From positions 1 to 64,000 of the forward strand of contig CAMEKM010000001.1 in the NCBI GenBank assembly GCA_945921355.1: a stretch of 64,000 bases of DNA, read 5' to 3'. Origin of the DNA: an uncultured Bacteroidales bacterium. Its GTDB lineage: Bacteria > Bacteroidota > Bacteroidia > Bacteroidales > Paludibacteraceae. Position 1 is the first letter of the stretch. Every line of letters starts with the position of its first letter. A model generated the notes under the pieces. That model had not been told where the DNA came from, did not search any database, and worked only from the letters and a program-made list of their open reading frames with translations. This document shows, piece by piece, positions 41,816 to 53,092 of this stretch. The translations under genes were made by a program, and so were the position numbers.

Positions 41816-42730
41816 TTACAATCTAGTTACCTTCTTAAATATTGGAGCTAGTTGAATATACCAATCAAATATTGTATTCCAATTGGTTTGATTGTTTGAA
41901 TCGATGCTCTTCATTATATATATGCGGCACGCTTTAGATGCTTCACGCCATACGATTTCGCCATCAAACATTTTTGCAATCTCCTCTGAATATGCACCTA
42001 ATTCTGCGTAATATTTCTTATCATCAGGGATATATATACCAATATCTACCGTTCCTTTTGTAGGTTGTACATTCAACGAAATATGACAATTACTTTTTCC
42101 TACAGCTAAATCAAACCAAGAATCTTTGTGAGCACGACGAAGTTTGAAGTCTTTTGTAAAAGTAGGATGAGTAGCAGCATAATTTCTAAATGCTTCCCAA
42201 AAACTGATACAGAATTTACCTCTTTCTGTAATCTCGGCAGATGTGTTTCTTTCTTCTTTGACCCAATCGTTAGGGCGTTCTACTATATTGAATTTTGGTG
42301 CTGGGAGCGAATCTCCAATACGCCATAACTCTATCTCTAGTAAGAAAAAGTTAATCTCGTTGTCTGTATGAGCATTCAGCCATTCAATAGCTTGTCTATG
42401 CTCATCACGAGCTTGTTTGACAATCCATATTATATATTTTGCATCTTTGCCACTAGCATAAGTTATAATCTTACCAAGATGGTCATGATTAGTAAACTCC
42501 AATTGATTCTCAATTATGATTTTCTTACCTGTTCCCTGTTCTTCGGCATATATATCCACGGAATAACCGCCTACAGAAGATTCTCTTTCTATTAAGCAAA
42601 TATCCAATCCAACGGTATCTCCTAAAAGATTCAAATTATCTTCTTGTGCTAGCCACGAAGAGAAGTCGTACTCCTCGTGCTTCCAAATCTCACGTAATTC
42701 AACGCGTTGTAATTTACCAATTGAAGCCAT
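41816..42730 (-). CDS. DUF4268-like, PD-(D/E)XK nuclease-like protein
   Basis: DFSSWLAQEDNLNLLGDTVGLDI...SVDIYAEEQGTGKKIIIENQLEFTNHDHLGKIITYASGKDAKYIIWIV. Confidence 0.8.
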   Translation of the reverse strand: MASIGKLQRVELREIWKHEEYDFSSWLAQEDNLNLLGDTVGLDICLIERESSVGGYSVDIYAEEQGTGKKIIIENQLEFTNHDHLGKIITYASGKDAKYIIWIVKQARDEHRQAIEWLNAHTDNEINFFLLEIELWRIGDSLPAPKFNIVERPNDWVKEERNTSAEITERGKFCISFWEAFRNYAATHPTFTKDFKLRRAHKDSWFDLAVGKSNCHISLNVQPTKGTVDIGIYIPDDKKYYAELGAYSEEIAKMFDGEIVWREASKACRIYIMKSIDSNNQTNWNTIFDWYIQLAPIFKKVTRL

Positions 42731-42818: not shown

Positions 42819-43250
42819 TTAAAAAAAGTGTTTCAAAATTCCTATTAAAAAAGTAAATGCAATTATCACAAAAGAGAGGAATTTGATCCATATCCATATA
42901 TAACTTAATCTACTATGTTTGATTAAACTTTGATTATATGTTGTAAGATATTTTTTATCGCCATATTTTTTTTCAAGCGATAGTAATTTATTATAATAAA
43001 AACAAGTATCAATAAAATAATGTAAAATATCTATGGCAAGATAAGCAAAACCTGTAAACAAAGAAGCAATCATCCAATTATTACTCAGCATAAAACTGCC
43101 ATCATTATACGAAACCACCCATATTGTAGTAATAATGCCCATTACCAAGGTTCTAGTATTTTGTGATACTTTGGTAGATTGGGTATTATAGAATCCATTA
43201 CCTTCTTCTATGGAATCTTCAAAATTCTTCTTTACTTGATCAATTGCCAT
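42819..43250 (-). CDS. Small multi-TM membrane protein, unknown function
   Basis: Hydrophobic segments LVMGIITTIWVVSY, MIASLFTGFAYLAIDILHYFI, YIWIWIKFLSFVIIAFTFLIGI; start overlaps the stop of the upstream micro-ORF (TAATG). Confidence 0.6.
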   Translation of the reverse strand: MAIDQVKKNFEDSIEEGNGFYNTQSTKVSQNTRTLVMGIITTIWVVSYNDGSFMLSNNWMIASLFTGFAYLAIDILHYFIDTCFYYNKLLSLEKKYGDKKYLTTYNQSLIKHSRLSYIWIWIKFLSFVIIAFTFLIGILKHFF

Positions 43251-43357
43251 TATTTCTTAGGAAATCCAGCAGGACCTATATGACGTCCTACACCATTATT
43301 ACCTTCTTGTGGAGGTTTTGTAGAAGGCACTTTTATTGCATTATTTTCTCTTTTCAT
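43250..43357 (-). CDS. Micro-ORF 1 (35 aa) MKRENNAIKVPSTKPPQEGNNGVGRHIGPAGFPKK
   Basis: Not in supplied ORF track (too short); shares GRHIGPAGF with micro-ORF 2, differences in the shared codons are synonymous; TAATG coupling to the next CDS. Confidence 0.6.
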   Translation of the reverse strand: MKRENNAIKVPSTKPPQEGNNGVGRHIGPAGFPKK

Positions 43358-43360
43358 ATT

Positions 43361-43441
43361 TTATTTTCTTTTTATGCCAAATCCAGCAGGACCTATGTGA
43401 CGCCCCTCGCCTCTCTCTTGTTTCTCTTCAGTATTATCCAT
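43361..43441 (-). CDS. Micro-ORF 2 (26 aa) MDNTEEKQERGEGRHIGPAGFGIKRK
   Basis: Same shared nonapeptide; lies 19 nt after the MTase stop and 3 nt before micro-ORF 1. Confidence 0.6.
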   Translation of the reverse strand: MDNTEEKQERGEGRHIGPAGFGIKRK

Positions 43442-43460
43442 AATTTATTTTATAATACAT

Positions 43461-45131
43461 TTAAATGACTTTATCTAATATTGTATCTTTAAACGTTTGC
43501 CAAATGTCTAGATGCACTTTTTTATAGTCTTCAAAGAGTTGTTTTACAAACTCTATTTCGAAAACTAATCTAAGATCGTTTGGGTCGTTGTCTGGTTGCC
43601 CTTCTTTACGAGTACCCACACGAGCAATCTTGATGAAATACAAATCTTTTATACCCTTGCCCTTGATGTATGGCATAAAGTAGTAAAGTTTGTTAAGAGC
43701 AACAGTAGAAGGGAATTTTTTGCCAGTATAGTAAATCTTAGCCGATTGGTCGAGGTATTGCTCCATGTTGTCAGCTTTGACGAGAGATACCAGCAGATTT
43801 TTGGTTAGATCCAAGTCTTCTGTATCTGGCAAATTTGCCTCAACGGTATTGTTTACAATCTCATCAGGATATTGCTCTTTTAACTGTAAGAAATCAACAG
43901 TTCCTGCTATACCAGGACCATCGGATGGTTTCGCATATTTCTTGATGGTCGCTTTATCGCCAAAGAGATATTTAGCAAACAGTTTAACGACTTCTACATT
44001 TACAGCATTGCCGAATTGCTTATATGCTTGGGCATCCACAACATCAGGTTGGAATGTGTCAGGAAAACTTTGCAGTCTTGCACATTCACGCAAAGTTAGT
44101 TCACGTTTACGACAGCCAACAATGGATGTTTGTGTAATAGCTACTAAAGCAGGGAAATATGTGCCAATTTTGACACGAATGCCAGATGGACGGAATTGCA
44201 AGATATGATCCCAAATATTAGGGTGCTTGTATTGTCCTGCTTGCCATTCCAATTTTGCCTTTGCTCCAAAGAAAAGTGGATTTTGTTTTGCTCTATTCAG
44301 CCATTCATCTATAAACTCTCGATTGTCTAAATACAATTGGTTGTTTTTATTGATAAAATTAATCTTCCAAGCAGGATAGCCCGTAGTATCTTCATTTAAT
44401 GATGGTTCATGCAAATACTCTGACCAAATAGGAAAGCCTGGTAGTTTCTTGCATTTGATATTTTGGATAAACTCATTCCACAAGTCCACCAACTGAATTT
44501 TATCTTCGCTCAAACGATATTTTTGCAAGTCATTTATTTCAGTATCATCCTGCAAAATATTTTCTACACTACATTTCGGCAATTTGCCTTTTGCATTGAA
44601 CTGAAAGACTGGCAATGTACCAATATCTTTACGCACGCACATGATGAACACACGCTCACGATGTTGTGGTATGCCAAGATAATGAGGACTAAAAATTACA
44701 GGCTCTTCCAATACATTGTAGCCGATGTTCGTCAAATGTTCGTGAATGGTTCGCCAAGTATTTCCACCATCATGTGAAGCCAAATTGCGTACATTTTCAA
44801 GCAAAGCATATTTGGGCTGACAATGTGCCATAATGCGCTCTACATCAAAAAACAGTGTTCCCTTTGTTTCATCTGCAAAGCCCAATCTTTTGCCTGCTTT
44901 TGAGAAGGCTTGACATGGAAATCCTCCGCACAAGACATCAAATGCTGGCAATTTGGAAGGGTCTATTTTAGTAACATCCACATCTGGTTTAAGACCATAA
45001 TTTGCTTCATATGTTTTTCTGCAATCTGCATCAATATCGCAGGCAAAAACGCACTCTCCCCCAAGCGATTCCATTGCTTGATGAAAACCGCCAATACCGC
45101 AAAATAAATCTATGAACTTAAATTTTTTCAT
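43461..45131 (-). CDS. DNA (cytosine-5-)-methyltransferase
   Basis: FIDLFCGIGGFHQAM, LCGGFPCQAFSKAGKR, ENVRNL, QHRERVF, ECARLQSFPDTF..QFGNAVNV. Confidence 0.95.
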   Translation of the reverse strand: MKKFKFIDLFCGIGGFHQAMESLGGECVFACDIDADCRKTYEANYGLKPDVDVTKIDPSKLPAFDVLCGGFPCQAFSKAGKRLGFADETKGTLFFDVERIMAHCQPKYALLENVRNLASHDGGNTWRTIHEHLTNIGYNVLEEPVIFSPHYLGIPQHRERVFIMCVRKDIGTLPVFQFNAKGKLPKCSVENILQDDTEINDLQKYRLSEDKIQLVDLWNEFIQNIKCKKLPGFPIWSEYLHEPSLNEDTTGYPAWKINFINKNNQLYLDNREFIDEWLNRAKQNPLFFGAKAKLEWQAGQYKHPNIWDHILQFRPSGIRVKIGTYFPALVAITQTSIVGCRKRELTLRECARLQSFPDTFQPDVVDAQAYKQFGNAVNVEVVKLFAKYLFGDKATIKKYAKPSDGPGIAGTVDFLQLKEQYPDEIVNNTVEANLPDTEDLDLTKNLLVSLVKADNMEQYLDQSAKIYYTGKKFPSTVALNKLYYFMPYIKGKGIKDLYFIKIARVGTRKEGQPDNDPNDLRLVFEIEFVKQLFEDYKKVHLDIWQTFKDTILDKVI

Positions 45132-46411
45132 GCTTGCTTATAAGTGTAGCGATATACCACATACTTATCCATTTCTTTTTTCTTAATAAGGAATTTCTTT
45201 TGTCGGCTTTTACCGTCTGGTTGTTTACCTTGGTTGAAATCAGTCAGAACATCTCTGAATGTTACACTATTCAACTCAAGAATTGTCATCTTCATAAACC
45301 GCACACTATTCTTCATGCGCTCATGATACGACATATCGTCCTTTTCGTAATTAGGAAGAACCGAACGAATATACTGATTGCGCTCTATAGTCGCTCTGTA
45401 TGCAGTTTCTTCGGAATCTTTTATAGTTTCGTGTTCATAAATAACATACCAAAAACGGTCGTGTTTATTGATACACTCTACAAAAGTTTCTTGGTCATTA
45501 CCAGGAGTAGAAGTTTTCTTAATATCACTTGCTTTCAGATCACCATAGAATTGTTCACGCCCAAACCATATGTCAAAATCGAAAGCACCTTCTTTATGCC
45601 CCTTATTGTCTGTTCCCACATATTTCATCAAATCAAGAGTATTATTATCAATGGTAAACTTATTGAATCTATACTCTAGAAACCAACCAGCCCACTCTGC
45701 TTGTTGCCAATGTCGCCAACTATCTCCGTGCATTTCTTTGATTTTATCAACAGCATACAGCCATTGACCAAAAGAGAAACCATTATTGAATTTAGCAAAC
45801 AAGTCAAAGAGTTCATTATCTCCAGTTTTTGTACCAGCCAAATAATCCGCAAAGTCTTTTGCTCGTACAGAATAAATATGATTGCCATACTGATCCTCAC
45901 GATGGAAAACGCCATTTCTTACTGCTTGGTATAGGTCGTTAGTGTAAACATGAGCAGAAGAATTATGCAAGCCATGTTGCAAATAAGTATCTTTTGCAAA
46001 ATCTACGAAAATAACATTATCTTGATAGTGATAAACTCCTACAAAACGAATATCATAATCAATCTTTGCAGCAATGGCTTCATTACAGAACTCTTGCCAA
46101 CTGCTTGGCATTTGAATGCGCTTTTTGAATATTGGATGAGGATTACCTAAATAGGATATGGCTTTATGCAGAAGGATAAATTTCTTTCCGTTAGTCCTAT
46201 ATACGAATAATTTGCGCCCTAAAATCTCTTCTACGAAACAGTTTTTCTCTCCTAAATAATGAGTTAGCGCAGCGCGTTGTCGCTTATTAGAACGCAGCAC
46301 TTGATCATGCGCCACTTCCAACCCAAAGTCCGAACGGATTTGTTCGCTCGGTCTATTGTGCGACTTATCATCGCTTAATTTGCTTTTGTCAAAAAAGAAG
46401 AAAAACATCAC
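45128..46411 (-). CDS. Candidate type II restriction endonuclease partner
   Basis: 4-nt overlap with 5mC MTase; FDFDIWFGREQFYGDLKASD resembles a PD-(D/E)XK-type core. Confidence 0.6.
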   Translation of the reverse strand: MMFFFFFDKSKLSDDKSHNRPSEQIRSDFGLEVAHDQVLRSNKRQRAALTHYLGEKNCFVEEILGRKLFVYRTNGKKFILLHKAISYLGNPHPIFKKRIQMPSSWQEFCNEAIAAKIDYDIRFVGVYHYQDNVIFVDFAKDTYLQHGLHNSSAHVYTNDLYQAVRNGVFHREDQYGNHIYSVRAKDFADYLAGTKTGDNELFDLFAKFNNGFSFGQWLYAVDKIKEMHGDSWRHWQQAEWAGWFLEYRFNKFTIDNNTLDLMKYVGTDNKGHKEGAFDFDIWFGREQFYGDLKASDIKKTSTPGNDQETFVECINKHDRFWYVIYEHETIKDSEETAYRATIERNQYIRSVLPNYEKDDMSYHERMKNSVRFMKMTILELNSVTFRDVLTDFNQGKQPDGKSRQKKFLIKKKEMDKYVVYRYTYKQA

Positions 46412-46471: not shown

Positions 46472-48088
46472 TTAGTTTTCAAATGTGGTTATACCGATGC
46501 GAGAATGATGACTTGCATACGCATGACCAATCATATCCATCATTTCTTTTTGAAAACAAAATAGAGGATTACCTATTAAGTTTCTCATTATTGATTTTGG
46601 CAAAGTAAATGAAAAATTCAAGTTAAATAATATTATTTTCTCTTGATCTTGTATATCATATATGCCACGAATACGCAGAATAGACTCTTTTAACTTTGAT
46701 CTTCCTCTATTGGTTTTAGCATTGAATAAATCAGAGGATATAGCCATGCCCAATAAGTATTTACATGTTCTTTCTTTACTTTGACAAAAGTCACATGCTG
46801 CACTATATTCAACACATATTAATTGTACATTTTCTAAATCTTCCTGTATAATTTTAGGAAGTATTAAATCACAAAATTCTAAAACAGAATAACCAAATTT
46901 ATCTATGAAGAAGTCTTCATTAGGTTCTAGTATAATGGGACATAGTGCCCCTCTTGTTTCTGCAGTTATATTCCCCTTGCTTTGAATGTTGAAAATATTA
47001 TTTAATTGTGATACTTTAAAATTATCAGGAAAACAAATATCATTTGATGTAGTTGAGTTTTCAAGGACATCAATATTCGTATTCCATAAAGTATGTTCAG
47101 AATTTCTAAAAGCATCTGATAATAATGGAATTAATGATTCTTTTATTGCATAGTCAGGATTTTGTTTCGCAAGTGCATATCCAACAGTCTGAACCGCAAT
47201 TGCAGATAGAACTTGTTGGCAATTATTGTTAAATGTATCATTATTTTCTAATTGTTTTTGAATTTCAGCAAACTCTTCTGTGGTATCAATATCTAATATG
47301 GTAAGTTCACTATTAGGATAAATTTCTTGTAAACATTCATTGATTCTTCTAAAATCAGTGTAATTATTTACACTTTTAGCACTCATTGTGCACTTAAGAA
47401 TGAAGTCTCTATATTTTTTAAATCGAATATCTTCTACCATGTGATTATCAGGTGATTTAGGGTATCCCTCATAGAGAAAATGACTAAAACACTGTAATGA
47501 CCAGTCCTTCATCACAGGATGGTTGTTTTTGAACTTTGTAAGCAGTACACGCTTTTCCTCAACAGAATCTGCAGGATCGGTTATATCCAAACTCTTCAAA
47601 AAATAATCTAAATGCTCTGCAGTGAAAATATTAAGGTATTTTTCTGGATAATATGTAGAAAGTATCTTACCTTTAAAAACTAAAGCAAGTGGGATCTGTA
47701 TAATAGCCTTGATATCATCTGCTTCACCTGCTACTAATAAATCTAGAATATTCTTACGAATTTGTTCATAGGCATTTTGAGCACTGCCATATTTTTTTGC
47801 ATGTGAATATGAGTTCTCTTTTGCAGAATACCAGACTCCAAATTTTTTAGAGGAACCGCCACGAATACTGCCTAATCCACGCAGAGTATGCTCTAAATCG
47901 TAACAAAAATTATGTTTTCCGTTATTCCCATAACCAATCGTATATTCTTCGATAGGCATTCCTTCTATATGCTCAGGAGTGAAATAAGTAACAAATGCTT
48001 CTCGTTTAGCATTTAATGCTGCCAATTGATCTGTAACCAGCACAGGATTGAAATTCTCAAGGGCTATTTGGAATTTTTCGTTATCCAT
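46472..48088 (-). CDS. Operon protein of unknown function with VEYSAACDFCQSKERTCKYLLG Cys motif
   Basis: Intact 538-aa frame from ATG 48088 (listed start is TTG); IRGGSSKKFGVWYSAKENSYSHAKKYG N-terminal segment. Confidence 0.65.
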   Translation of the reverse strand: MDNEKFQIALENFNPVLVTDQLAALNAKREAFVTYFTPEHIEGMPIEEYTIGYGNNGKHNFCYDLEHTLRGLGSIRGGSSKKFGVWYSAKENSYSHAKKYGSAQNAYEQIRKNILDLLVAGEADDIKAIIQIPLALVFKGKILSTYYPEKYLNIFTAEHLDYFLKSLDITDPADSVEEKRVLLTKFKNNHPVMKDWSLQCFSHFLYEGYPKSPDNHMVEDIRFKKYRDFILKCTMSAKSVNNYTDFRRINECLQEIYPNSELTILDIDTTEEFAEIQKQLENNDTFNNNCQQVLSAIAVQTVGYALAKQNPDYAIKESLIPLLSDAFRNSEHTLWNTNIDVLENSTTSNDICFPDNFKVSQLNNIFNIQSKGNITAETRGALCPIILEPNEDFFIDKFGYSVLEFCDLILPKIIQEDLENVQLICVEYSAACDFCQSKERTCKYLLGMAISSDLFNAKTNRGRSKLKESILRIRGIYDIQDQEKIILFNLNFSFTLPKSIMRNLIGNPLFCFQKEMMDMIGHAYASHHSRIGITTFEN

Positions 48089-48130
48089 AGTTTCTTTCAA
48101 TAATATTCAAGTTTGCATCAAGTGATGCTG

Positions 48131-48769
48131 TTATTTTATAACCATATCCTTTTGGAGATAGAATAGTATATCTGCTATTTTACGATAGTGTTCTTGATCT
48201 TTATGTTGGATTAAACAGTTGACAATTTCTCTACTGACTTGAAATTTAAATCTTTCTCGGAATAAAGAATAGTCATTAATTGTTTCCACTGAAATACTAT
48301 TACATAAAGCATCAACGAGAGCTTTATTGTAAATATCTATATCGCTTTGGGAGAAATCTGTAATATCAATACCATGTATATGTTTTCTTTTTTGTGCATC
48401 GTATAAACTAGTAGGTAAGTCTTGGAACCCAATTGTACTAGTTAAATGATATCTATGTATAAAATCAGCAGAATTGCATGCTAATAGAAAAAGCTTTTTT
48501 CCCTGCAAAAGATCAATATTGTATTTATCAAACATATTGCAATCATCTAATAAATCAGCATACAAAGCATCACTCCTGCCATGTCCCAAAAAGAAAATTA
48601 TATCAGCATCTTTGGCTATATTATATATCTCAGAAAGAGTATCATCATCATTATCTTTGTCATAACCTACTCTGGTCGCAGATAATGTGTCACAAATATA
48701 ATTACACAACGGAGATAAAAACTCTATCGCATAATCTTTCTCTGAATATATACATACTATTTTACTCAT
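48131..48769 (-). CDS. CHAT/caspase-like protein (candidate protease effector)
   Basis: DADIIFFLGHGRSD (His) and KKLFLLACNSADF (Cys) as in CHAT/caspase-fold dyads; overlaps receiver gene by 8 nt. Confidence 0.6.
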   Translation of the reverse strand: MSKIVCIYSEKDYAIEFLSPLCNYICDTLSATRVGYDKDNDDDTLSEIYNIAKDADIIFFLGHGRSDALYADLLDDCNMFDKYNIDLLQGKKLFLLACNSADFIHRYHLTSTIGFQDLPTSLYDAQKRKHIHGIDITDFSQSDIDIYNKALVDALCNSISVETINDYSLFRERFKFQVSREIVNCLIQHKDQEHYRKIADILFYLQKDMVIK

Positions 48770-49457
48770 GGTTTACAGTGGTAAGGTAAGCGATTGTTTG
48801 AGATAGTATTGCATCAATCCACTCTTCTGACCTCGCATCAGAATTATTCTCTATAATATCTGCAATTTCTCCAAATGATTTTTCTTGAAATTCAGGATAG
48901 CAAGATTGGAAAATAAAATCTTTATTTGAACGCAACAATTTAATTAGACGTTGTTCTACAGAATCATTTTGCTCTTTTTGTAAATATTCAATAAGTCTTT
49001 CTTGATAGTCTGTTCTATCTATACAGTCAATGATTTGGGCTTTAATAAGTTTGTTTATTCCTTCCACTAGCTCATCAATAGTTGCTTCATTATGTTCTTT
49101 GCCAACTACATTCGCTATCACCTTATTCCAGTTACCAGAATAAATAAAGAATTTCAATTTGGGGCGTATTTCACGCACCATATGAATGACATTCAATCCT
49201 GTAAAATCATCACCACATTCCAAATCGAAATCAGTCAGTGCAATATCAACACGTTTTAGTTGAATACGTTCCTTTATTTGGTTCTTTAGTTTATCTATAT
49301 CCAATTCTTCTGAATTGTCTTTCTTTAATTTTGCATCTGCAGTACGAATTGGTATAAAATCTAAATCAAAATCATTAGACAATCTAGTTGTTATGCTCTT
49401 GATTACTGCAGTCTGTGGCTTATCATCAACCACTAATATACATTTCTTTTGTTTCAT
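48762..49457 (-). CDS. Receiver-domain (REC) response regulator-like protein without recognisable HTH
   Basis: CILVVDDKPQ acidic pair; IALTDFDLECGDDFTGL phospho-acceptor Asp; KFFIYSGN. Confidence 0.7.
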   Translation of the reverse strand: MKQKKCILVVDDKPQTAVIKSITTRLSNDFDLDFIPIRTADAKLKKDNSEELDIDKLKNQIKERIQLKRVDIALTDFDLECGDDFTGLNVIHMVREIRPKLKFFIYSGNWNKVIANVVGKEHNEATIDELVEGINKLIKAQIIDCIDRTDYQERLIEYLQKEQNDSVEQRLIKLLRSNKDFIFQSCYPEFQEKSFGEIADIIENNSDARSEEWIDAILSQTIAYLTTVNHE

Positions 49458-49462
49458 AATTC

Positions 49463-51838
49463 TTATTCAAATGTTAAACGGAAAGTTGCACCAGTAGTAA
49501 AGTGCAGACCATTTCCTATGAACTGAATATCCCCATTGAGACTATCTCTCATACGTTCACGAATTGTACTTAATCCTATGCCAGATCCTCCTCTACGATT
49601 AGTGATCCCTTCCTCAAAAATACTCTCAGAAGTGAAAGTGTTCAAATCTACTCCTTTACCATTGTCAGTAAAGTCAACAATGTACGTTCTCCCATTTCTT
49701 GAAAAGTCCACTCGTATTTCTGTTGCACCTGCTTTATTTGAATTGCTCTTAAGATTATCCAAAACTATAGACAAATCCAAAACAGGAATTTTTTTCTCAA
49801 GAGGCTCTACTATGGTTGAATAATATTGTATCTTTAGATCTTTGTAATTTGCAAAATACTCCTCAATAAATGTTTGAATATCTACCAAATTAGACTGAGC
49901 TAATAAAGTTAAGTCTGCTTTTGTGATTAATTTTGAAAGTTTATTTATTTTTCCTGTATGATATTCCAATTCATCTAAAGATGTTCTTAAATCATGTATA
50001 TTATTATTCTCCCATTGATTTTTAGCTGTTTTAATCACACTTATAGCATCATTTGACGAAATTAATATAACATGCATTAAGTCGCGAACTTCTTTTGATG
50101 TATTTTGGGTAGCCTGAAGATATTTATTTTTTTGAATTTGAGCATCTAAGTTCTTTTCAGCCTCTTTACGTTTTTCTTCTTCCTTTTCTCTCTTTTGTTG
50201 CTCTTCTTGTGCTTTTTTCTGTGCTGTTTGCGCTTTAATTCGTTCTTCCTCTGCTTTTTTATCGGCTTCTTCTTTTTGACGACGCAATTCATCCATGTGA
50301 TTCTCAAATTGAGTAATCTTGTCCATCAAGTATGCATCGCCAGTTTGATATGCTACTTTGCGAGCATCTTCTATCATCTGCATTTGAATCAATTCTGTTT
50401 CAGATACATTAGATACAATATCAGCCAATTGAGCATTGTAATAAAGAATATTAATATCTGTATCGTTAGCAAGACTTTTGATTAATTGCATAAAATCAAT
50501 CTTGCTACCAATATTTTTATACAAATGTAGTGACGAGTCTTTATCTTTATCTGTTTGTTGAAGATTGGATCGTTCTTGTAAAGCTGTTTGTTGGTTTTTA
50601 AAGTACTCTTTTTTCAAGAACCCTTCTCCCCATAACACGCCTACTACATATCGCTCCAATCGATGATGTATTAATGTAAAATACTCCATCAACTGCTTAG
50701 AAGCATTTGTTTGAATTAATCCTCCATCTCGACTTGATACTTCTTTAATTGCATTAATATCATCGGTTTCCACATCTACACGTCCGAATAAATCACGCGT
50801 GCCCAAAAAGCGGTTATATCCTTGTTGTGCTCGTTGATTTATACCCCAGCTATCGTCATTATAATTACCAAATGGAAGAATACGAAAGCCATTGCGAAAC
50901 AAAAATATATTTCCATAATTAACAGGCTGAATGCCCATTTTAGATGAAAAACTATATTTTGCAGCTCTATTTAAGAAAAAGATGCTTATTTGGGCTGATG
51001 TGAGTTCTTGAAATTTATTAGGTTCCTTTATTTCATACATCTTAGCATCACGATCCCATAATGTAGTACGAATAAAGCCATCCTTTATAGTACTTTCTAT
51101 TTTTGTGGTTTTGAGTTTAAGAATATCTGCTATAGAGTTTTCAATAATTCCGTTCACTTTATCATACGAAAACTTGGCATCTTTATCATCCTCCGCATAT
51201 TTTGGAGCTATAATCTCTATTTGAAAATCGTCATCAGTACTAGAAAATGGATTGATCATTTTTTCTAGTGATTTTCTTATAGCAAGAATTTCTTTTCTAC
51301 CCCAAAGATTGTGCAATCCTCTAAATTCTAAAATAGTTCCTGTTTGATCATTATTAGGAAATTGAGGGATATCATCTAAAGTTTCATGAGGGATATTAAT
51401 CGTATCAAATTCTTGTTTTTTATTTTGTTCGAAAATTTTCCAATCTACATACAAGACCTCTGTTTTATTAGTCCCTAAACTTCGAGTGGTTAATGTTAAG
51501 CAGCGAGCCAACCTATCACACGATATACGTCCAATACCCTTGGCCCCTGCATAATGACGCTTAAACTTACTGCGGTATGAAGAATCTTCCGTGCCATCAC
51601 TTTTTGCAGAATAGGCAACAAATAACCACTTGTTGATCAAATCATCCTTTGACATTCCTTTGCCATTATCTGCTATGCGCAAATAATCTTCATCAAAAGT
51701 GATCTCTACTTTGGTAGCATGTGCATCATAAGAATTCTTGACTAATTCCAGAATGGCCACACCGGGACTTGTAATCAAGTCTCGACCAAGAATGTTTTTT
51801 AATTCTGCACTAACCCTAAATTGTAAATTATCTTGCAT
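49463..51838 (-). CDS. Double-GHKL protein: N-terminal MORC/Hsp90-like ATPase and C-terminal histidine-kinase-type ATPase, coiled coil between
   Basis: ILELVKNSYDA, RIADNGKGMS, YAGAKGIGRIS; LDNLKSNSNKAGATEI, DFTDNGKGVD, RRGGSGIGLSTI; EEADKKAEEERIKAQTAQKKAQEEQQKREKEEEKRKEAEK. Confidence 0.85.
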   Translation of the reverse strand: MQDNLQFRVSAELKNILGRDLITSPGVAILELVKNSYDAHATKVEITFDEDYLRIADNGKGMSKDDLINKWLFVAYSAKSDGTEDSSYRSKFKRHYAGAKGIGRISCDRLARCLTLTTRSLGTNKTEVLYVDWKIFEQNKKQEFDTINIPHETLDDIPQFPNNDQTGTILEFRGLHNLWGRKEILAIRKSLEKMINPFSSTDDDFQIEIIAPKYAEDDKDAKFSYDKVNGIIENSIADILKLKTTKIESTIKDGFIRTTLWDRDAKMYEIKEPNKFQELTSAQISIFFLNRAAKYSFSSKMGIQPVNYGNIFLFRNGFRILPFGNYNDDSWGINQRAQQGYNRFLGTRDLFGRVDVETDDINAIKEVSSRDGGLIQTNASKQLMEYFTLIHHRLERYVVGVLWGEGFLKKEYFKNQQTALQERSNLQQTDKDKDSSLHLYKNIGSKIDFMQLIKSLANDTDINILYYNAQLADIVSNVSETELIQMQMIEDARKVAYQTGDAYLMDKITQFENHMDELRRQKEEADKKAEEERIKAQTAQKKAQEEQQKREKEEEKRKEAEKNLDAQIQKNKYLQATQNTSKEVRDLMHVILISSNDAISVIKTAKNQWENNNIHDLRTSLDELEYHTGKINKLSKLITKADLTLLAQSNLVDIQTFIEEYFANYKDLKIQYYSTIVEPLEKKIPVLDLSIVLDNLKSNSNKAGATEIRVDFSRNGRTYIVDFTDNGKGVDLNTFTSESIFEEGITNRRGGSGIGLSTIRERMRDSLNGDIQFIGNGLHFTTGATFRLTFE

Positions 51839-53054
51839 TCGTCAACATATGTTTTAACACAATACCAGCTAACTCCGCAAAAAGAGGTGGGATGGCATTG
51901 CCGACTTGTGTATATCGTGGTACTTCTAATTTGCGCATTTGTCCGCCTGTGGTATATTTCTTACGGAATTGATACCAGTCTGGAAATGATTGTATGCGAG
52001 CACACTCGCGCACTGTCATGATGCGAGGCTCACAATAGTGTAAATAATCATCTGGCTGTCCAGTGATAGTAGGAGATACAGTATGAGAATCAAGGACAGT
52101 GATACCACGCTGAAGAATACCCCATGGTTCACGCGCCTTGCCGTCAATACGTTTGCCTCGGGTTGGATATTCTGCTAACAAGCGATTATAGCATGCTAAT
52201 TTTCCTGCAGTATGTTTAGCAAAAGCATGACTATCTGCAGCATCGCCCTCTACAAATTGTTCGCCTCGTAGATATTGCTGGTAAGCAGATAAAACAGGGC
52301 CATATTTTCCTGCCATAAATCCCTTGCGATCACACGAAGGAGTTTCCCCGTAACTGCGTAATAAGTCAGAAATAGCCTCTTCTAATGTTGTGGTGGTTGA
52401 TAGATTTTTCTTCTTTAAGAAAGATTCTCTCTTATCTTTAAGAAGACTCTCAAACTCAGAGGCGCTGCGGTTTAATTCTTTTTGAATTCCAACTAGAATG
52501 AAACGTTTACGACGTTGTGGAACTCCATATTCTGAAAAGTCTATCACATGAGGGCGCACATCATAACCCAAACTTTGTAGTCGCTCCACTACAATTTGAG
52601 AATAAGGACGCGTGTTGTCATTCTTATTTTTCTTGAAAGCATATGTAAAGCCTTTTACATTCTCAAAAAGAATCATTTTGGGTTTGACAAGCTCAATGAA
52701 CTTAATATACGAAAAAACAAGCTGATTGCGTATATCATCTGCTACACGTTTGCCTGCCATAGAGAAACCTTGACAAGGTGGACCACCTGCGACGAGATCA
52801 ACTGTACCTTGTAAAGCCTCTAATTGCGTTGAATAGTTTTTGAGAACCTCATTGATGTCATGTGCCGTTTTAGGTAACCAATCTGGCCAATCAAAGTGCT
52901 TTTTGCTTTCTATAAGGTTGTGGCGTAATGTTTCAAATGCGAATTCATTCTTCTCTATGGCAAACAAACCGTGCCAGCCTGCCTGATACAAGCCTAAACT
53001 AAGTCCTCCGCATCCTGCGAAAAGATCAATAACGGTATGTTTATTTTTCTTCAT
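51828..53054 (-). CDS. DNA (cytosine-5-)-methyltransferase (second, divergent)
   Basis: VIDLFAGCGGLSLGL, VAGGPPCQGFSMAGKR, ENVKGF, PQRRKRFILVG, ARIQSFPDWYQF..QVGNAIPP; ORF opens at 53081 but ATG at 53054 fits the promoter. Confidence 0.95.
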   Translation of the reverse strand: MKKNKHTVIDLFAGCGGLSLGLYQAGWHGLFAIEKNEFAFETLRHNLIESKKHFDWPDWLPKTAHDINEVLKNYSTQLEALQGTVDLVAGGPPCQGFSMAGKRVADDIRNQLVFSYIKFIELVKPKMILFENVKGFTYAFKKNKNDNTRPYSQIVVERLQSLGYDVRPHVIDFSEYGVPQRRKRFILVGIQKELNRSASEFESLLKDKRESFLKKKNLSTTTTLEEAISDLLRSYGETPSCDRKGFMAGKYGPVLSAYQQYLRGEQFVEGDAADSHAFAKHTAGKLACYNRLLAEYPTRGKRIDGKAREPWGILQRGITVLDSHTVSPTITGQPDDYLHYCEPRIMTVRECARIQSFPDWYQFRKKYTTGGQMRKLEVPRYTQVGNAIPPLFAELAGIVLKHMLTNAR

Positions 53055-53092
53055 ATTCAGATTCCCAATTAAAAAAGACATATTTTAGCGCG

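Follow-up and report, generated by a model that had tools for sequence, protein, structure and literature searches.

A conserved cassette of two motif-sharing micro-ORFs and a membrane-protein gene, possibly for defence, behind restriction-modification genes in Bacteroidales

We analyzed a 64,000-nucleotide stretch of the genome of an uncultured Bacteroidales bacterium (hereafter, the window) and found that two micro-ORFs, A and B, together with the gene of a 143-aa membrane protein (TM), recur with the same order and nearly identical geometry in a second genome of the same genus, G1146. Comparison of the two loci indicates that A, B and TM are genuine genes forming a conserved three-gene cassette, with a function that is possibly related to defence. 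We propose, at a probability of roughly 0.38, that A and B are cytosolic micropeptides that dock through their shared motif and control TM, which would be a membrane effector or sensor. Genes shorter than about 40 codons are usually omitted by automatic annotation, so that defence islands may contain micropeptides that are systematically overlooked; conservation across species, a fixed gene geometry and a changed restriction-modification (RM) partner make this cassette a concrete case of such micropeptides.

Two micro-ORFs and a membrane-protein gene in the window

Micro-ORF A (MDNTEEKQERGEGRHIGPAGFGIKRK, 26 aa; 43361..43441, minus strand) and micro-ORF B (MKRENNAIKVPSTKPPQEGNNGVGRHIGPAGFPKK, 35 aa; 43250..43357, minus strand) were found exactly where the sequence-only reading had placed them, as its ORF 2 and ORF 1, respectively. 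As that reading had also stated, they lie between the gene of a C5-cytosine methyltransferase (MTase 2; 43461..45131, minus strand) and the TM gene (42819..43250, minus strand), and the stop codon of B overlaps the TM start by 1 nt (TAATG). The spacing is 19 nt from MTase 2 to A, 3 nt from A to B and −1 nt from B to TM; A and B share one reading frame, with a single TAA plus 3 nt between them. Each contains one copy of the motif GRHIGPAGF (43379..43405 in A and 43262..43288 in B, both on the minus strand). The 27-nt copies are identical at 25 positions, the two differences being GGG/GGA and CAC/CAT, and a whole-assembly search did not find the motif elsewhere in the 1.8-Mb assembly.

The two ATG-initiated ORFs tile 189 of the 210 nt that separate MTase 2 from the TM gene, a coverage equalled by 21 of 5000 dinucleotide shuffles. 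Both motif differences are silent in only one of the six frames, that of the minus-strand micro-ORFs. The sequence-only reading had argued from the two silent differences for selection on the peptide. This argument is weak, as a pair of random changes has a probability of 0.068 of being silent at both positions (0.080 if only transitions are considered); its conclusion stands through the conservation of the peptides in G1146 described below. Within the window, seven of the nine motif codons are identical between A and B, more than independent codon choice would give (P = 0.018–0.027), and twin short ORFs arising from intergenic DNA repeats are present elsewhere in the DNA that we fetched, so that from the window alone a recent short copying event or gene conversion would be possible. 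In the window, matching short ORFs produced by short intergenic repeats (for example, two copies of MIIFCFCPNECNALH) lie at ~34.2–35.3 kb and at 39.5–40.1 / 41.4–41.6 kb; these are possibly remnants of a mobile repeat.

Hydropathy predicts about three transmembrane segments in TM (approximately residues 33–49, 57–80 and 113–140). Structure models of TM were all-helical bundles of low confidence (pLDDT 66–68) that are too weak to interpret; fold searches with them gave no significant match, and no sequence relative of TM was found in the PDB. Neither A, B nor TM had a credible match beyond chance in Pfam, NCBIfam, PADLOC or PHROGs.

A relative cassette in a second genome

A motif scan allowing two mismatches across 79 genomes of the same genus yielded one further genuine locus, on contig C6 of G1146 (L115/L117). 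It encodes orthologues of A (MEDKEEKQERGEGRHIGPVGIGTEKR, 26 aa, 81 nt; L117:5134-5214), B (MGNNNSSRIPSPHSGRTDTNGVGRHVGPAGKPSK, 34 aa; L117:5026-5130) and TM (143 aa, 64% identical to the window TM; L115:944-1375). The order A-B-TM, the 81-nt length of A, the 3-nt spacer between A and B and the TAATG overlap are identical in the two genomes, and the distance from the upstream gene to A is 19 nt in the window and 22 nt in G1146. Homologous micro-ORFs thus stand beside a similar gene, bearing out the earlier proposal of conserved basic peptides tied to a membrane-protein gene. The G1146 cassette lies inside a 50.8-kb contig whose adjoining genes look like ordinary chromosomal ones; both genome assemblies are incomplete (82% and 76% complete). 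The other match of the genus scan (L116) was RRRIGPAGF within a 110-codon frame and was rejected as a micro-ORF.

Synonymous sites are saturated between the window and G1146 (pS 0.73, 0.71 and 0.71 for A, B and TM, respectively), with limited nonsynonymous change (pN 0.16, 0.36 and 0.19). All three genes are under purifying selection and dN/dS near 1 does not apply to any of them: Fisher tests on rounded counts, which treat sites as independent, gave P = 2 × 10−5 for A (11.5 of 15.7 synonymous vs 9.5 of 59.3 nonsynonymous sites, counted without the initial Met), 0.0016 for B, in which the N-terminal alignment is uncertain, and 5 × 10−19 for TM. Third codon positions hold an excess of the differences (13 of 21 in A and 23 of 45 in B). 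The residues kept between the two genomes are EEKQERGEGRHIGP in A and NGVGRH[IV]GPAGxPxK in B, and all four peptides share the core G-x-G-R-H-[IV]-G-P-[AV]-G. The N-terminal extensions, described in the sequence-only reading as completely different, do differ between A and B, yet the extension of A (EEKQERGEG) is conserved in G1146. In TM, the best-conserved parts include soluble stretches, and the last transmembrane segment is among the least conserved.

These comparisons also bear on the possibility that the motif is a short DNA or RNA element, such as a direct repeat or a hairpin, or a neutral duplication lying in open frames by accident. The exact identity of seven of nine codons in the window could reflect recent copying or conversion of a short segment, and other short intergenic repeats lie nearby. 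However, motif DNA differs at 8–11 of 27 nt in all comparisons between the genomes, and the peptide GRH[IV]GP[AV]G is retained through this divergence; the third-position excess in A and B and the lack of an Rfam match in the region also speak against such an element. Purifying selection on A and B refutes this explanation in its pure form, and we give it almost no weight. Searches of the region gave no terminator and no significant RNA structure (z = −1.46). Between A and B, the motif copies show 2 differences in 27 nt in the window and 8 in G1146; the window copies, being far more alike than any others compared, were probably homogenised or re-copied recently, which would account for the near identity that first drew attention to them.

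Wider searches gave no additional genuine cassette. An exact-motif scan of 85,462 species genomes returned seven matches, none of them a micro-ORF cassette; the frames in question were segments of other or longer open frames, and the scan used a single exact motif that would miss the G1146 alleles. Nothing genuine came from looser motif scans of viral contigs and of sampled genomes of the order, or from tblastn searches of plasmids and phages. The many G.HIGPGG matches in genomes of the order belonged to a recurring peptide of ~26 codons that probably stems from reading a widespread housekeeping gene on its opposite strand, and the Rhizobium tblastn matches that we checked were parts of long ORFs. 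Stretches around other methyltransferases (sets of 7 and 20) lacked the cassette. Relatives of TM were absent from 295 genomes of the class and 150 of the family, a sampling to which G1146 did not belong, and from plasmids, phages and viral contigs. The searches made found no family or structure for the cassette and, besides G1146, no relative.

Restriction-modification context of the two loci

In the window, the cassette lies near the end of a tightly packed run of minus-strand genes that extends from 53081 down to 41816. In order, the run encodes C5-methyltransferase 1, a GHKL (paraMORC-type) ATPase, a receiver-like protein, a CHAT-like protein (48131-48769; motifs FFLGHG and LLACNSAD), a 542-aa protein similar to PD-T4-1, an MTaX1-type II restriction enzyme (45128..46411; PF20296, 79 bits; PDLC03409, 293 bits), MTase 2, A, B, TM and, 88 nt downstream of the TM gene, a DUF4268/PDC-S11 defence candidate (41816..42730). 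The similarity of the 542-aa protein (46472-48100, minus strand), which had no Pfam match, is to PD-T4-1 over its first 265 residues (155 bits). The MTaX1-type enzyme appears to be very rare in Bacteroidota, with no other match in 396 and 248 sampled genomes.

The upstream genes (48762-53081) belong to the class of C5-MTase/paraMORC (HEF_HK)/Response_reg_2 RM systems: the methyltransferase/GHKL/receiver unit matches the type reported in PMC8011034 and has relatives in the paraMORC systems of PMC2292703. PMC8011034 describes the MTase, GHKL and receiver genes, and the word CHAT is absent from it; the portions of PMC8011034 and PMC2292703 that we consulted contain no micropeptide cassette. The order C5-MTase/GHKL ATPase/receiver-like/CHAT-like (48131-53081, minus strand) recurs in two further loci (L053 and L059), and a third (L058) contains its GHKL-receiver-CHAT part; the CHAT-like gene comes after the receiver gene in all three. 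The GRHIGPAGF motif is absent from the examined loci homologous to the 48762-53081 unit.

The neighbours of the G1146 cassette are different. Upstream are a T5orf172/PDC-S57 gene and then the modification and restriction genes of a type III system, the restriction gene taking the place of MTase 2, which itself lies outside the conserved cassette. Downstream is a CoiA_N-like gene of 376 aa (L117:3490-4620, minus strand) in the position of the DUF4268/PDC-S11 gene of the window; both may be defence nucleases. When 12 proteins of the window, among them the two methyltransferases, the GHKL ATPase and the CHAT-like protein, were compared by tblastn with 15 kb of G1146, TM gave the only match. Together with the unrelated neighbours, this identifies the cassette as a unit that depends on neither the CHAT protein nor the methyltransferase.

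The sequence-only reading had further suggested that A and B might be cleaved by the CHAT-like protein, whose gene is part of the same run. Co-occurrence of peptides and protease is not seen: the 15-kb G1146 locus has the cassette and encodes nothing similar to the CHAT-like protein, and the motif is missing from all three loci that have CHAT homologues. Cleavage of A and B by this protein is not supported, and we regard their being substrates of a CHAT-like protease as very improbable.

With a type II RM operon in the window and type III Mod-Res genes in G1146, the three genes look like a restriction-linked mobile cassette. Both known loci lie behind RM genes, at the 3' end of the operon, and a preference of the cassette for such positions may be taken as a lead, not a statistic. 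Its membership in a defence operon is likewise suggested through guilt by association.

Possible roles of the micropeptides

In leaderless two-peptide bacteriocin loci, a small multi-TM protein is encoded after two small basic peptides in tandem, and A, B and TM follow the same layout. An example of this class is the subject of PMC13262744. Under such an explanation, A and B would be secreted antimicrobials or signals and TM an immunity protein or exporter. However, the peptides of such loci are amphipathic or hydrophobic and membrane-active, and A and B are very hydrophilic (GRAVY −1.6 and −1.2; net charge +1 and +5), without a hydrophobic stretch. They have no leader, and no transporter, export or accessory gene was seen nearby, the adjacent genes being of RM and defence types. 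The motif they bear is a conserved one, not a diversified core, and the cassette lies inside an RM operon at both known loci. A bacteriocin-like role is therefore improbable. Being hydrophilic with a net positive charge, A and B fit better as cytosolic partners than as membrane-active peptides.

We infer that A and B are translated, that they are cytosolic, that their motif binds TM and that they act in defence. In the proposed mechanism, two conserved segments of TM predicted to face the cytosol, IEEGNxFYxxQSxKVSQN and the loop IDILHYFxDTxFYYNKL..YLTTYNQ, would bind the motif shared by A and B. The two micropeptides, translationally coupled and made just before TM and in step with it, would hold or gate the membrane protein. 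Phage attack would lead to a loss or imbalance of the presumably short-lived A and B and so free TM to target the membrane, backing up restriction. If the peptides do control the membrane protein, a peptide-gated membrane layer would be added to restriction systems. A broader and more doubtful proposal is that the cassette represents a kind of restriction-linked accessory system not described before: two micropeptides of 26–35 aa with a common motif would gate a small membrane effector, and the three genes would move together from one RM operon to another, whether of type II or type III.

The main rival to control by docked micropeptides is control in cis. A and B could be leader peptides in which ribosome pausing at the C-terminal R-H-[IV]-G-P regulates initiation of TM, in the manner of SecM/RAPP-like attenuation. 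Both ORFs carry the motif close to their C-terminal end, and Arg and Gly-Pro are part of it; the stop of B overlaps the start of TM, and the stop/start geometry is kept to the nucleotide. Arrest peptides are short and have a patchy distribution; they often stand ahead of membrane-machinery genes, and Bacteroidota possess their own unusual types (PMC10987492). The cassette resembles the SecM/RAPP family (RQH) in its short upstream ORFs, conserved C-terminal motif and coupled downstream gene. However, its core is RHIGP or RHVGP, not the described R-A-P-P, R-G-P-P or R-A-G-P, and its downstream gene is not secA, secDF or yidC. The occurrence of two successive copies in separate ORFs is unusual, and RNA structure in the region is within chance, as noted above. 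The N-terminus of A is strictly kept, for which a C-terminal arrest motif has no obvious need. We consider leader control unlikely, though less so than the bacteriocin-like role.

Control of TM by docked micropeptides can also be set against the toxin-antitoxin modules of defence islands. The cassette differs from these in that its two micropeptides share one motif and in having no relative of a known toxin or antitoxin; it is like them in its small genes, tight translational coupling, apparent mobility and linkage to RM genes.
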